Source of the DNA: Aureimonas altamirensis
GTDB lineage: Bacteria > Pseudomonadota > Alphaproteobacteria > Rhizobiales > Rhizobiaceae
Assembly (NCBI RefSeq): GCF_001463885.1
Contig: NZ_BBWQ01000010.1
Coordinates: forward strand, 1-64,000
Length of the DNA: 64,000 nt
Direction: 5' to 3'
Shown here: positions 12,725-17,478 of the stretch, one piece after another
Layout: each line of letters starts with the position of its first letter
Position numbering within the stretch: position 1 is the first letter of the stretch
Program-made: the position numbers and the translations under genes
The notes under the pieces: model-generated
Told to the model about the DNA's origin: nothing
The model's database searches: none
Seen by the model: the letters and a program-made list of their open reading frames with translations, nothing else

Positions 12725-13753
12725 CTACAGACGCCAGGCGCTGGAAATGGACACGGCCATTGCCTGGCCGGCCTCGCGGCGCGTTGCGCTGTAGACCAGC
12801 AGTTCCTGTCCGTCCGGCAGACGCAGCGTCACGCAATAGCGCTCACCCTGGAACACCGCCGTTTCGACGCGGGCGGCGATGCCGTTTGCGTCTTCATGGA
12901 CATGTTCCGGCCGCACCAGGAAGGCCGCCTTCGGCCCCGTGTCTGCGCTCGACAGCATCGCGGCCAGTTGCGGCCAGCCCGGCTGGCGCACCCCGCCCGC
13001 CGGTGCCGACAGATCCAGTATGGCCCCCCGGCCCACCAGATTGCCGACGATGCGCCCTTCGGGCCGCGCATAGAGCGCGTCGGGAGCCGCCACCTGCAGA
13101 AGCCGCCCCTCCGACATCACGGCCACGTCGGTGGCCAGCGCCATCGCTTCCGCCTGATCATGCGTCACATAGATCATGGCGGCTCCGGACCGCTCGTGGA
13201 AAACGCGGAAATTTTCTTCCATCTCGTGGCGCAGATGCCTGTCCAGATTGGCCAGCGGCTCGTCCAGCAGCACCACCGCCGGTTCGGTTACCAGGCAGCG
13301 TGCCAGTGCGACACGCTGGCGCTGGCCGCCCGAAAGGTCTGCCGGGCGCCGGTCCGCCAACTTGTCCAGCCGCACCGCCGCCAGCGCCTCGCCCACCTTC
13401 CGGTCGTATTCGGCGCGCCCGATGCCGCGCACCTTCAGCGGGTATCCGGCATTGTCGGCGACACTCATATGCGGCCACAGCGCATAGGACTGGAACACCA
13501 TCGCCATGCCGCGCCGCTCCGGCGGCACCATGCCGCCCGCATCGGCTAGCCGGCGCTCTCCCAGGAGGATCTCCCCGCCGGTCGGCTGCTCGAAGCCGGC
13601 GATCATGCGCAACACGGTCGTCTTGCCGCATCCGGATGGCCCCAGCAGCGCCAGGAACGCGCCGGGCTTGAGCTCCAGCGACACGCAATCGACGGCCGGG
13701 GGCGCTTCCGGTGAAAACCGCTTGGTGACGCCGTTGAGGATCAGTTTTGCCAT
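12725..13753 (-). CDS. ABC transporter ATP-binding protein (FbpC/PotA-like)
   Basis: 342 residues. Walker A is GPSGCGKTT, the signature LSGGQRQRVALARCL, Walker B VVLLDEPLANLD and the switch His in VTHDQAEAMAL. A C-terminal TOBE-like domain (from about residue 240, AFLVRPEHVHED) is typical of the Fe/polyamine/2-aminoethylphosphonate branch. It energises the permease encoded upstream, whose stop it overlaps by 13 bases. Last gene of the four-gene operon that starts with the phosphohydrolase at 17408. Homology alone suggests ferric iron; the operon context argues for an organophosphorus substrate (see findings). Confidence 0.92.
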   Translation of the reverse strand: MAKLILNGVTKRFSPEAPPAVDCVSLELKPGAFLALLGPSGCGKTTVLRMIAGFEQPTGGEILLGERRLADAGGMVPPERRGMAMVFQSYALWPHMSVADNAGYPLKVRGIGRAEYDRKVGEALAAVRLDKLADRRPADLSGGQRQRVALARCLVTEPAVVLLDEPLANLDRHLRHEMEENFRVFHERSGAAMIYVTHDQAEAMALATDVAVMSEGRLLQVAAPDALYARPEGRIVGNLVGRGAILDLSAPAGGVRQPGWPQLAAMLSSADTGPKAAFLVRPEHVHEDANGIAARVETAVFQGERYCVTLRLPDGQELLVYSATRREAGQAMAVSISSAWRL

Positions 13754-15432
13754 GGAACGGTTCCGCGTGGCAGCCAGCGGCCGCAAAGGTCGAGCAGCAG
13801 CATCAGCGCGGTCACGACGAGGACGACGAGGACAGACAGCGCCGCGGCGAGGTTGAAACTGCCGCTGTCGTCGAGATTGTAGATGACGACGCCGATGGTC
13901 TGCGTGCCCGCCGACCAGAGCAGGGCCGAAACGGTCAGCTCGTTGCAGGCGAACAGGAACACCAGCACCGCGCCCGCCGCCGCCGAAGGCGCGACGAGCG
14001 GCAGGAGGATATCGCGCATCCGGCGGCCGAAGCCGGCGCCCGAAATGCGGGCGGCTTCCTCCAAGACCGGGTCCATCTGGCGGAAGGCGCTGTCCACGGG
14101 TTTCAGCGCCACGGCCAGGAATGACGACAGATAGGCGAGGAGTATGATCCACAAGGTGCCGTAGAGAGACACGCCCAGAAATGGCACGGGCGCCGCGAAC
14201 AGCAGCACGAAGGCGACGGATATGACGATGCCGGGCAACGCATAGGGAACCTCGGTCAGCATGGCCAGAATGCGCGCCAGCGGTCCGCGCCGGCGTGTCA
14301 GAAGATAGGCGGTCAACAGCGCGACGACGCCGAGCGCCACCGCCGCGCCCGCCGCCAGAAGGAACGAGTTGGCAAAGGCCCGCCGGGTTGCCGACTGGCG
14401 AAAGAGCACTTCGCGATAGGCATCGAGCGTCGCCGTGTCCGGCGTCAGCCTGACCCCGTAGGCCGGCGCCAGCGATCCGGCCACGAGCGAGGCGAAGGGC
14501 GCAAACAGCATCAGGGCTACCAGAAGCCACAGGAGTATCTGCAGCGCAAATCCCCAGCGGCCGAGCCTGAATACGGCGCTGGCGCCGGAATGCCCGATGG
14601 TGCGGTAGTCGCGTCCCGCAAGCGCCCGTTCCTGCACCCACAGCCCGGCAAAGGCGATCACCGCGATCAGGGCGGCGATCATGGCGATATCGCCGAAGGT
14701 GCCGGCGCCGAAAGCCGTCAGCCGGCTGTAGATAAGGGTCGGCAAGGTCGCGATCCCGGCGGGCAGCCCCAGAATGGCCGGGATGCCGAAATTGCCGATG
14801 CCCGAAACGAAGGCGATGGCCGCACCGGCCACCAGGCCGGGCGTTGCCAGCGGCAGGACGATATCCCGCAGGACGCGGCCTTTCGAGGCCCCGGACAGAC
14901 GCGCCGCCTCGATGGCATCGCGCGGCAAGGCCAGCAGGCTGGCACGCAAGGTAAGATAGACCAGGGGCGCATGCTGCACCCCGTATAGCAGCGCGATCCC
15001 GCCGACCGAGTAGAGCGGCTGCGGGCTGCCCAGCGGCGGCGCCATGCCGATGGCCTTCAGCAGCGCGCTGGATGGTCCGCTCATGCCGATCCAGGCCAGG
15101 GCCGTCACTTGCGGCGGAATCATCATCGGCAGCATGAAGAGAATGCCGAGGGTGCGCTTGAAGCGCAGGTCGCACAATGTCAGCGCCAGGGCAAAGAGCC
15201 CGCCCAGAAGCACCGAGATCGCCATTCCGCCGGCGGATGTCGTCAGCGTATTGCGGAAGGCGGGCCAAAGCGCCGGGTCCGCCGCCAGCGACGCCAGGCC
15301 GCCACTACCGGCAGAGCGCATGCCAGTTACGCCCAGCCGCAGCAGCGGCAGGGCGCACAGGAACAGGATGGCCCCGGTGACGAAGCCTGTCAGCCAACGC
15401 GGCTCCAGCCGGTTGGCAGGCAATGCGGGCAT
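13741..15432 (-). CDS. ABC transporter permease, fused two-domain FbpB type
   Basis: 563 residues carrying two binding-protein-dependent transport domains in one chain, about six helices each. EAA-type cytoplasmic loops are visible at about residues 195-215 (EAARLSGASKGRVLRDIVLP) and about 460-485 (EEAARISGAGFGRRMRDILL). The tandem arrangement is characteristic of ferric and 2-aminoethylphosphonate importers. Starts 8 bases after the binding-protein stop with AAGGCGC as ribosome-binding site; it overlaps the ATPase gene by 13 bases. Inner-membrane channel of the importer. Confidence 0.93.
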   Translation of the reverse strand: MPALPANRLEPRWLTGFVTGAILFLCALPLLRLGVTGMRSAGSGGLASLAADPALWPAFRNTLTTSAGGMAISVLLGGLFALALTLCDLRFKRTLGILFMLPMMIPPQVTALAWIGMSGPSSALLKAIGMAPPLGSPQPLYSVGGIALLYGVQHAPLVYLTLRASLLALPRDAIEAARLSGASKGRVLRDIVLPLATPGLVAGAAIAFVSGIGNFGIPAILGLPAGIATLPTLIYSRLTAFGAGTFGDIAMIAALIAVIAFAGLWVQERALAGRDYRTIGHSGASAVFRLGRWGFALQILLWLLVALMLFAPFASLVAGSLAPAYGVRLTPDTATLDAYREVLFRQSATRRAFANSFLLAAGAAVALGVVALLTAYLLTRRRGPLARILAMLTEVPYALPGIVISVAFVLLFAAPVPFLGVSLYGTLWIILLAYLSSFLAVALKPVDSAFRQMDPVLEEAARISGAGFGRRMRDILLPLVAPSAAAGAVLVFLFACNELTVSALLWSAGTQTIGVVIYNLDDSGSFNLAAALSVLVVLVVTALMLLLDLCGRWLPRGTVPWQN

Positions 15433-15439
15433 GAGCGCC

Positions 15440-16408
15440 TTACTGGGTTGCGCCGAATATGGCGTTGAATTCCTTCAGATCCTGGTCGGATGCAGCCAGT
15501 GCGGCCGCCGGATCGAACGGCAGGAGCTTGATCTCCTCACGCGCCGGGAAACCCTCCGGCAACGCAATGCCGTCGCGCGCCGGGATGTATCCCAGTTTGG
15601 CCTGCAGCGCCTGCCCCTCCTCCGAGAGGAGATAATCGACGAACTTCTTGGCCGCGTCCACATTGCGCGCGGTGGACAGGATCGCAACCGGCTCGGTCAC
15701 GGCGGAGACGCCCTCCTGCGGGAAGACGAAAGCGACGGGCGCCCCCTTGGCGGCTTCGCGGATCGGCAGATAGTCGACCACCATTCCGTAGGCCTTCTCA
15801 CCGGAGGCAACGGATTTCAGCACCGCGCCGTTGCCGCCGGCCGCCACCGCGCCGTTGTCCTTCAGGCTGCGATAATAATCCCAGCCCAGCTCTGGAACGC
15901 CGGTCAGCGTCTGCGCGTGGATCAGCGCCGCGCCGGACGTGGCCGGGCTCGGCATCGCCACCAGCCCCTTGGCCTCCGGCTTGGCCAGATCAGCCCAGCT
16001 TTGCGGCGTCATTCCGGCGGCCGTGTTGTAGACGATGCCGGTCGTGATCAGCTTGGTGGAGTGGTAGGCGCCATCCGGGTCGTGCAGGCCTTCCGCGTAG
16101 CCCTCGGCCTGCGGCGAAGGATAGGCAAGAAGCTGGCCCGCTTGCTTCATCCGCTCCAGCGTCACGCTGTCGGCGATCAGCAGCACGTCCGGCGCCGGGT
16201 TTCCGGCTTCGATCTCGGCCATCAGGCGCGCCATCAGCTTCGGCGTGCCGTCGCGCACCCACTCGACCTCCAGCCCGGTGGCTTCCTTGAAACCATCGGC
16301 GGTCGCCTGCGCGTCTTCATTGGGCTGGCTCGTATAGAGAACGAGGTCGGCGGCGGAGGCCGCCCCACTCAGGAGGCAGAGCGCCAAGGCGGCGAGAATG
16401 CGGGTCAT
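15440..16408 (-). CDS. Periplasmic substrate-binding protein, Fbp-like but lacking the dityrosine iron site
   Basis: 322 residues from the ATG at 16408 (GGAAG 7 bases upstream). Residues 1-19 are a Sec signal ending AASA, then ADLVLYTSQPNED, the normal start of the FbpA/PF13343 fold. Ferric-binding members coordinate Fe3+ with two adjacent tyrosines just before the PVAF strand; here that stretch is GMVVDYLPIREAAKGAPV (residues 208-224) with a single tyrosine. This weakens an iron assignment. A Pho-box-like repeat lies 49 bases upstream. The phosphohydrolase is the preceding gene and the permease follows by 8 bases. Confidence 0.88.
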   Translation of the reverse strand: MTRILAALALCLLSGAASAADLVLYTSQPNEDAQATADGFKEATGLEVEWVRDGTPKLMARLMAEIEAGNPAPDVLLIADSVTLERMKQAGQLLAYPSPQAEGYAEGLHDPDGAYHSTKLITTGIVYNTAAGMTPQSWADLAKPEAKGLVAMPSPATSGAALIHAQTLTGVPELGWDYYRSLKDNGAVAAGGNGAVLKSVASGEKAYGMVVDYLPIREAAKGAPVAFVFPQEGVSAVTEPVAILSTARNVDAAKKFVDYLLSEEGQALQAKLGYIPARDGIALPEGFPAREEIKLLPFDPAAALAASDQDLKEFNAIFGATQ

Positions 16409-16456
16409 GTCGAACTTCCAGTGCGGTTTCGCGTGGCTGGCAACAACCACAGATCA

Positions 16457-16474
16457 ATGACAGTCATGTAACAG
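16457..16474 (-). promoter_or_regulatory. Pho-box-like direct repeat upstream of the binding-protein gene
   Basis: Read on the minus strand the site is CTGTTAC-ATGA-CTGTCAT, two 7-mers separated by 4 bases, the exact geometry of a PhoB box (consensus CTGTCAT-N4-CTGTCAY). The second half is a perfect match and the first differs at two positions. It spans the stop codon of the phosphohydrolase gene and ends 48 bases before the binding-protein ATG, a normal position for an activator-dependent internal promoter. A clear -10 is not obvious. Confidence 0.6.
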
Positions 16475-17408
16475 CGGTCAGCCGCAATGTCCGCTTTTCC
16501 TCGCGGCCGAAACCGGCAATCTCCATCCGGTCGGCGTGCAGCGTGACGATGGCGTAGGCGCTCGTGTCCGGCGTATCCACCATGCCGCGAAACGTAACGA
16601 AGTGCCGTCCGTCCAGTTCGCCGTAATTGCCGGCATGGTTATGGCCGTTCATCCAGACGGCAAAGCTGCGATGCGACAAGGCGAGGTCGACGAGCTCTTC
16701 GGCGTTCCAGAGATTATGGTCGTTTGGCGGATAGACGGGGTAATGGCAAAGGACGATGGCGCGCTCGCCTGCGGCATCGGCCGCGCCCAGACGCTCGTCC
16801 AGCCAGCGTGTCTGCTCCTCCCCCACCGAGCCGTTCCAGGCTTGCGCGTTCGGTGCGCCGCTTTGCCGCAACCGCGCCAGCCTTTCTGACGCCAGTGCCC
16901 GGCGTTCGCTGCCAGCCGGTGTCGAGAACAGGCTGATGTCGTTGCCGTCCAACACGATGAAGCGCGTACTGCCCTTCGCAAAATCGTACCAGGGGGCGTC
17001 CATGCGCGCCGCCGGGACGACAGAGCCGAGATCGTCTTCCGCAACAGCGAAATCGTGATTGCCAAGGACGAAGCGCGTCTCATGCCGCAGCGCGTCATAG
17101 AGCGGCATGATGGCGCCGAAGCTGTCCCAGTGCCGGTCGATGACATCGCCGAGCGTCGCCACGAACGACAGGTCCTGCGTGTTGAACGACTCGACCGCCT
17201 GTCGAAGCTTGCGCAGCGAGTTGGCATAGTAGCGGCCGGACCGCAGATTCGGCTCGATCGGCGCATATTGCGGATCGGCGACGATACCGAAACGCAGGGG
17301 CTCTGCCCCGGACAGATGCCGTCTGGTAGAGCCGTCCGATACGGCCAGCGCCGGCCCCGCTGCCAGAAGCGTGCCGCCGCCCACCATCAGGTCGCGCCTC
17401 GTTACCAT
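16464..17408 (-). CDS. Exported metallophosphoesterase, ADPRibase-Mn / CDP-alcohol phosphohydrolase-like
   Basis: 314 residues. The N-terminus VTRRDLMVGGG followed by a hydrophobic run and ALA is a Tat-type signal, so the enzyme probably folds in the cytoplasm and acts in the periplasm. Metallophosphatase motifs are complete: FGIVADPQY (D-x-Q), LGDVIDRH, GNHD, CHYPVYP and GHNH. The segment after the first motif, RSGRYYANSLRKL, matches the manganese-dependent ADP-ribose/CDP-alcohol diphosphatase subfamily. First gene of the operon with the ABC importer, 55 bases before the binding-protein start. The likely role is releasing an importable product from a phosphodiester or nucleotide-linked alcohol; the substrate is unknown. 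Confidence 0.85.
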   Translation of the reverse strand: MVTRRDLMVGGGTLLAAGPALAVSDGSTRRHLSGAEPLRFGIVADPQYAPIEPNLRSGRYYANSLRKLRQAVESFNTQDLSFVATLGDVIDRHWDSFGAIMPLYDALRHETRFVLGNHDFAVAEDDLGSVVPAARMDAPWYDFAKGSTRFIVLDGNDISLFSTPAGSERRALASERLARLRQSGAPNAQAWNGSVGEEQTRWLDERLGAADAAGERAIVLCHYPVYPPNDHNLWNAEELVDLALSHRSFAVWMNGHNHAGNYGELDGRHFVTFRGMVDTPDTSAYAIVTLHADRMEIAGFGREEKRTLRLTAVT

Positions 17409-17460
17409 TGCTGCCTGCCCTTGGCTGATTCTCGATTGTGGGCCCTGTTATCGAAGCGCG

Positions 17461-17478
17461 GTGACAGGCAGGTGACGC
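17461..17478 (-). promoter_or_regulatory. Pho-box-like direct repeat upstream of the phosphohydrolase gene
   Basis: On the minus strand the site is GCGTCAC-CTGC-CTGTCAC, two 7-mers with a 4-base spacer. The second is a full match to the PhoB half-site and the first keeps GTCA. It ends 53 bases before the ATG at 17408, and GATAAC lies 8 bases further on as a possible -10. The same bases can also pair weakly as a hairpin, so a terminator role for the upstream oxidase gene cannot be excluded. Confidence 0.5.

Follow-up and report, generated by a model that had tools for sequence, protein, structure and literature searches.

A candidate PhoB-controlled organophosphate-scavenging operon in Aureimonas altamirensis, with an AfuA-like importer and an ADPRibase-Mn-like phosphoesterase

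The AfuABC importer of Actinobacillus pleuropneumoniae, which carries hexose and heptose phosphates, was once called a ferric transporter (PMC4546632), and P5PA of Actinobacillus, a pyridoxal 5'-phosphate binding protein of the same fold, has been reported only in Pasteurellaceae (PMC8427247). In Sinorhizobium meliloti, the genes SMc04316-SMc04317 carry a Pho box, belong to the highly induced core phosphate-stress genes and are called iron transport, in a statement of PMC8829014 that cites Yuan et al. 2006b. Here we analyse a 64,000-nt stretch of the Aureimonas altamirensis genome (contig NZ_BBWQ01000010.1; "the window"), in which positions 12725-17408 hold four close-set minus-strand genes, encoding a phosphoesterase, a binding protein, a fused ATP-binding cassette (ABC) permease and an ATPase. 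The importer has as its putative orthologue the S. meliloti operon, and we hold with moderate confidence that the locus is a PhoB-controlled operon for scavenging organophosphates.

Gene layout and conserved Pho boxes

The locus comprises the following features (protein lengths in amino acids, aa):

17461-17478, minus strand: Pho box of the phosphoesterase gene, GCGTCAC-CTGC-CTGTCAC (12/14 matches), with a weak third heptamer at 17450-17456
16464-17408, minus strand: metallophosphoesterase gene, ADPRibase-Mn-like (314 aa; Pfam Metallophos)
16457-16474, minus strand: Pho box of the binding-protein gene, CTGTTAC-ATGA-CTGTCAT (13/14 matches)
16446-16452, minus strand: third, weaker heptamer of the binding-protein box, CTGTGGT, which keeps the 11-base period
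15440-16408, minus strand: gene for a periplasmic, AfuA/P5PA-like binding protein with a signal peptide (322 aa)
13741-15432, minus strand: fused ABC permease gene (563 aa; two BPD_transp_1 stretches; Pfam, NCBIfam)
12725-13753, minus strand: ABC ATPase gene (342 aa; ABC_tran and TOBE_2; Pfam, NCBIfam)

An initial annotation of the window had described these four genes on one strand and two 7-4-7 repeats, and both genes and repeat sequences were recovered as described, the binding-protein box lying 48 bases before its ATG; the distance from the phosphoesterase box to its ATG had been given as 53 bases and is 52 by our count. The start of the binding-protein gene was placed at the ATG at 16408, not at the GTG at 16450 of the mechanical open reading frame, because the ATG opens a signal peptide (judged by eye). 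A gap of only 7 bases separates the binding-protein and permease genes and the permease and ATPase genes overlap by 13 bases, so that these three genes look like one transcription unit. The binding-protein Pho box overlaps the last codons and the stop of the phosphoesterase gene. Among named records, the closest one with all four genes comes from Aureimonas altamirensis A31 (L069; binding protein 96%, phosphoesterase 81%).

A Pho box was defined as two CTGTCAY heptamers with an 11-base period, and a box scoring at least 11 of 14 was counted as good. The number of boxes in the window was rejected as evidence, since sites with up to three mismatches number 11 against 9.4 expected, and the case therefore rests on rank and conservation. 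If no more than one mismatch is allowed, the 4.19 Mb genome contains only three sites. The first is the binding-protein site at 16457. The second, which serves as a positive control, precedes the gene of the PhoX alkaline phosphatase (L266:1737-3798, on C22 of the same genome), its first base 70 bases before the start codon, a spacing identical to that of the phosphoesterase box. The third lies inside a frame that reads as a sensor kinase with a binding-protein domain (L267:8-2440, on C10 of the same genome) and probably occurs there by chance. PhoX, rather than Pst, was taken as the control because the PstS model TIGR00975 found no match in the 99.98% complete genome, whose PstS is likely of a different family. 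Sites with up to two mismatches number 48 genome-wide, against 30 for the reversed pattern, indicating that this class is mostly noise; the phosphoesterase box belongs to it and thus leans on conservation.

Among 80 named loci, 77 have a good box near the binding-protein start, compared with 9 of 400 control windows taken from other parts of those loci, many of the loci being closely related, so that the counts are not independent events. In 54 wider loci the figure is 33, compared with 2 of 108 in-gene windows. A good box also precedes the phosphoesterase gene in 26 of 32 loci, including unlinked ones (against 1/32 in-gene windows and 18/640 shuffles; gene starts taken from match starts), and the window's own phosphoesterase box is kept in L010, L011 and L069. 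An unbiased search of 92,556 dyads upstream of 64 binding-protein genes (54 wider and 10 named loci; threshold, 12 loci) ranked GTCA-N7-GTCA first, in 19/64 upstream regions against 0/192 controls. Six dyads reached the threshold, the other five also in register with the same Pho box. The genome encodes a PhoB orthologue (332.6 bits; curated cut-off 296.2). With boxes conserved at both genes and this orthologue above its cut-off, the PhoB-type control suggested by the initial annotation gains support, and we infer from these sequence data that the operon is under PhoB control.

Other Pho-like sites were noted in the same genome. The gene of a 736-aa phytase-like protein (PF13449; L264:1601-3898, on C25) is preceded by a triple Pho heptamer, made of two overlapping two-mismatch sites (C25:103100-103128), and is likely, judging by this motif, a further member of the Pho regulon. 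A paralogue of the window's binding protein in the SBP_bac_6 family (L268:1330-2430, minus strand, on C10) has a two-mismatch Pho-like site ~105 bases upstream. The frame L267:8-2440 is a single open frame in which a two-component sensor kinase is followed by a PF13343 domain, either as a true fusion or as two genes.

The binding pocket and its predicted cargo

The solved proteins closest in sequence to the binding protein are 8x1a, AfuA (4r72-4r75) and P5PA (6wce). In profile scores, three organic-phosphate binders come out at 123, 116 and 98 bits and a Campylobacter ferric binder at 81, followed by metal-citrate binders and IbpS (74-79 bits) and the remaining proteins (67 or less). A structural model (predicted local distance difference test, pLDDT, 91.9) retrieved with Foldseek, in this order, VcA0625 (a glucose 6-phosphate binder by its PDB title), AfuA with glucose 6-phosphate or fructose 6-phosphate, and P5PA; after these came HitA (rank 7), then AfuA in its apo form and further binders of ferric iron and metal citrate, with slowly declining E-values. 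The name "Fbp-like", given to the importer in the initial annotation, is not the best one for its binding protein, whose closest relatives of solved structure are binders of sugar phosphates or pyridoxal phosphate.

In AfuA, the phosphate is contacted by S37 and T150, and the sugar is held by H205, D206 and E229 (PMC4546632), while the phosphate cage of P5PA is formed by the N-termini of three helices, at T37, G148 and S183 (PMC8427247). Helices of our model begin at T55, G159 and N193, in positions that coincide with those of the P5PA cage or adjoin them, and T55, S158-G159 and N193-G194 are invariant across 64 aligned binding-protein sequences (a stop and coverage filter removed 2 of 65 binding-protein loci, L163 and L176). 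The position of AfuA T150 (T149 in P5PA) is taken by A160, the cage as modelled being mostly kept. The AfuA sugar triad aligns with V211, D212 and E232 and is thus incomplete, the D206 and E229 positions holding D/E and E/D, respectively, throughout the family. With H205 replaced and T150 turned to alanine, AfuA's ligand and its full cage cannot simply be carried over to this protein. In the modelled pocket the phosphate end has changed little and the opposite end is new; the predicted pocket residues form at least three sets within the 64-member family, the window's set having D53, R217 and E239. The literature search returned no direct evidence for phosphocholine or phosphoethanolamine as ligand.

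These observations point to the following model. During phosphate starvation, PhoB would bind both boxes and both promoters would be switched on. The AfuABC-like importer would bring in an organic phosphomonoester whole (a sugar, alcohol or amine that bears a phosphate), gripped at its phosphate end by the three-helix cage, and the phosphate would be freed inside the cell. PhoB switching and intact uptake are the well-supported predictions of this model. The role of the phosphoesterase within it is a proposal, considered below. What the computations show is the gene content, the conservation of the boxes, the family placement, the loss of the ferric ligands and a Tat-type N-terminus on the enzyme; PhoB control, the class of ligand, export and the coupling of enzyme to importer are inferences.

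The phosphoesterase and its possible tie to the importer

The only PDB match of the phosphoesterase in a phmmer search is zebrafish 2nxf, which is also the top Foldseek match of its model (pLDDT 89.1; template modelling score, TM, 0.80; no other listed match exceeds 0.63). ADPRibase-Mn-like enzymes are Mn-dependent hydrolases of ADP-ribose and CDP-alcohols, with three structural elements peculiar to the family around the entrance of the active site. They carry the dimetal signature DXX, GDXXD, GNH[D/E], H, GHXH (PMC3407115), and all of its elements are present here, as D45-x-Q47, G87-D91, G116-D119, H222 and G255-H258, with metal-motif residues that include G87-D88, G116-N117-H118 and G255-H256-x-H258. 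The N-terminus, inspected by eye, is of the twin-arginine translocation (Tat) type, MVTRRDLMVGGGTLLAAGPALA, which predicts export.

Of 297 genomes sampled from the family (Rhizobiaceae in the GTDB sense), 29 have the enzyme, as do 4 of 21 from the window's genus; among 385 genomes sampled from the class, the window's own was the only one with it. A midpoint-rooted tree was built from 31 phosphoesterase sequences (the stop and coverage filter dropped 1 of 31 phosphoesterase loci, L231; start codons are unverified). The 7 Tat-bearing enzymes fall into one starred clade of 8 together with L013, and the other 23 have no such N-terminus, so that the export signal is missing in 24 of the 31. Two changes are needed to place the signal on this tree, and export looks derived, as far as predicted N-termini can tell. 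The L013 enzyme (L013:1471-2334) stands beside the importer, lacks the Tat signal and has a very long branch (1.11), and it still matches Metallophos.

In Aureimonas, a Tat-bearing ADPRibase-Mn-like phosphoesterase of what would be the same regulon stands before the importer. We propose that the exported enzyme supplies the importer's phosphomonoester, most likely by cleaving phosphoanhydrides or cyclic diesters in the periplasm to give monophosphates. Candidate substrates are nucleoside diphosphates linked to a group X (NDP-X, such as CDP-alcohols or ADP-ribose) or 2',3'-cyclic nucleotides. A more specific version, which we put forward tentatively, is that the enzyme splits NDP-X in the periplasm and the AfuA-like importer takes X-phosphate whole, as carbon and phosphate together (for example ribose 5-phosphate, phosphocholine or phosphoethanolamine), in contrast to PhoX, which strips phosphate outside. 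Related "ferric" importers across Rhizobiaceae would in that case all be organophosphate importers of undescribed specificity.

A serious alternative is that the importer carries an organophosphate while the phosphoesterase acts on something else, for instance in recycling nucleotides or lipid headgroups of the cell itself, and has only regulation and, in Aureimonas, position in common with the importer. We regard this as possible, though on balance unlikely. It is favoured by the 28 other family-sample genomes with the enzyme, all 28 of which show no importer gene within ~1.5 kb of it; by the lack of an export signal in most of the sequences, although the enzyme is mostly boxed; and by the named importer loci, of which 79 of 80 lack a phosphoesterase within the stretch analysed. 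On the other hand, the enzyme co-occurs with the close importer clade, both by genome (17/25 against 12/272, p = 2e-14) and by genus (9/12 against 4/97, p = 3e-8), in counts that ignore phylogeny, and in 3 of 4 Aureimonas genomes it lies directly upstream of the importer with a Tat signal of its own.

Several observations weigh against the coupled scavenging model as a whole. When all importer relatives are counted, co-occurrence is weak (19/117 against 10/180 genomes, p = 0.003, phylogeny again ignored). The importer adjoins the phosphoesterase in only 4 of 32 loci (the window, G005, G012 and G014), and the other 28 have no importer gene within their ~1.5 kb flanks (three of these were examined in 14 kb stretches). 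The initial annotation had looked to relatives for conservation of both the boxes and the four-gene order; the boxes are kept, and the order was seen only in these four genomes of the window's genus. One of the four, represented by L013, lacks the Tat signal, and three of the seven Tat-bearing enzymes (L014, L224 and L214) have no good box. Within the Tat-bearing subclade the enzyme is found beside the importer only in the window's genus. A good box is missing in 21 of the 54 wider binding-protein loci. In the pocket, the position of the phosphate-touching AfuA residue T150 is occupied by alanine (A160 in the window's protein; glycine in 1 of 64 members), and that of the sugar histidine H205 holds valine in 58, isoleucine in 5 and alanine in 1. 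Foldseek, moreover, parts organic-phosphate from ferric binders weakly, with HitA seventh (2.2e-22) and above apo AfuA. Since 28 of 32 loci are unlinked and most of the enzymes have no export signal, enzyme and importer need not act in series; the periplasmic hydrolysis with later uptake of a product that the initial annotation suggested is one possible route.

Other cargoes, importer relatives and known systems

A second alternative is that the importer carries 2-aminoethylphosphonate or another phosphonate, as PhnS2 or AepX would. The best NCBIfam match of the window's binding protein is indeed phnS2, which matches all 64 family members, D212 and E232, both acidic, could accommodate an amine, and the P. 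putida protein AepX, which shares the Pfam family, depends on PhoBR for its induction (PMC8316502). However, the PhnS2 model TIGR03261 scores 131.8 bits, far below its cut-off of 392.75, and in the 99.98% complete genome PhnJ is missing and neither PhnW nor PhnX is found above cut-off (PhnA/PhnY were not searched). Phosphonate uptake is accordingly unlikely, and we give it little credence; the hint of 2-aminoethylphosphonate in the initial annotation finds no support, while PhoB-type control and a non-iron importer stand from its overall interpretation.

PhoX-type phosphatases need iron, which is a possible reason for a ferric importer to be found in the Pho regulon, and in FbpA ferric binders iron is bound by adjacent tyrosines. 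FbpA mutants Y195A and Y196A appear as PDB titles among the fold matches of our model. An FbpA-type ferric importer that happens to sit in the Pho regulon is nevertheless very improbable: it would fit the same Pfam families, the small distance in Foldseek E-value between HitA or FbpA and AfuA, and the iron-transport name of the presumed S. meliloti orthologue operon (PMC8829014), but the tyrosine pair, seen as YY in the Campylobacter ferric binder aligned for comparison, is absent (positions 213/214 are F 33, Y 29, A 2 / M 45, L 16, other 3 in the 64 members), the profile puts the three organic-phosphate binders on top, and only Pho-box dyads reached the 12-locus threshold, in a search not tuned to iron boxes. 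The suspicion of the initial annotation that this is not an iron importer, despite homology, is thereby supported.

In the family sample of 297 genomes, 117 genomes (50 of 109 genera) contain a relative of the binding protein (E <= 1e-60), as do 87 of 397 genomes from a sample of the order. Their neighbours were surveyed with rough gene calls chosen by weighted GC content at third codon positions, one representative per neighbour type being domain-scanned. Group II importer loci (~50% identity, n = 12) have a SurE-type gene downstream in 8 cases, a metallo-beta-lactamase-fold gene in 6 and, in 7, an upstream divergent gene with a putative sugar-binding regulator domain (PF04198). A gene of the endonuclease/exonuclease/phosphatase family lies 3' of the ATPase gene, in the same orientation, at 65 of 141 loci, of which 64 are named rhizobial ones, and within 200 bases of it at 34; no Pho box scoring at least 11 precedes this gene in the 65 loci. 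The hydrolases beside these other branches speak for the scavenging model, as facts of neighbourhood and not as proof of joint function. In six Ensifer/Sinorhizobium loci (L134, L137-L140 and L142) the permease match starts ~370 bases after the binding-protein match, compared with a gap of tens of bases in most other rhizobial loci, the excess being partly due to a longer permease frame.

The literature searched holds no tested function for Pho-boxed AfuABC importers of alphaproteobacteria. What is new here is the pairing of phosphoesterase and importer and the Tat signal; the Pho-boxed importer operon as such is known, and novelty is moderate because the Pho box at the putative S. meliloti orthologue is already published (PMC8829014). 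A large group of importers, with relatives in over a third of the family genomes sampled, is likely misread as iron uptake, and such a misreading can mislead physiology: in Rhizobium leguminosarum bean bacteroids, afuA3 is up ~40-fold and filed under iron limitation, and the same bacteroids are phosphate-limited (PMC6421345), a possible case in point if afuA3 is orthologous to the importer gene. If the scavenging model is true, it adds a phosphorus source to the known diet of the Pho regulon, and a Pho enzyme would have gained an export signal and a place before an importer.

The locus can be set beside five described systems. Vertebrate ADPRibase-Mn (EC 3.6.1.53; PMC3407115) is closest to the phosphoesterase in sequence and fold (30% identity, TM 0.80) and has the dimetal motifs in common with it; unlike the vertebrate enzyme, that of the window is bacterial and Pho-boxed and belongs to a family with a Tat-type signal in one subclade. 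In Phaeobacter sp. MED193, the run MED193_11288 to 11308 includes a phosphorus-stress "predicted phosphodiesterase" that is undetected in a phoB mutant and, in the same run of locus numbers, a sugar-type ABC importer (PMC10132767); the likeness is one of annotation, and this importer differs in its sugar-type annotation and in a binding protein that rose in the phoB mutant too. The S. meliloti operon differs in its neighbourhood, as none of the 8 Ensifer/Sinorhizobium loci shows a phosphoesterase within the stretch analysed. P5PA (PMC8427247) has its phosphate-caging helix ends at or next to the same places as our model; it differs in H203, which aligns with V211 here, and shares 24% identity. 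AfuA, finally, is alongside VcA0625 the nearest solved binding protein, with equivalents of its S37, D206 and E229 kept as T55, D212 and E232, and it differs at H205 and T150, which are valine and alanine here (~26% identity). In contrast to AfuABC, the importer of the window is preceded by a phosphoesterase gene and has a Pho box that is conserved.

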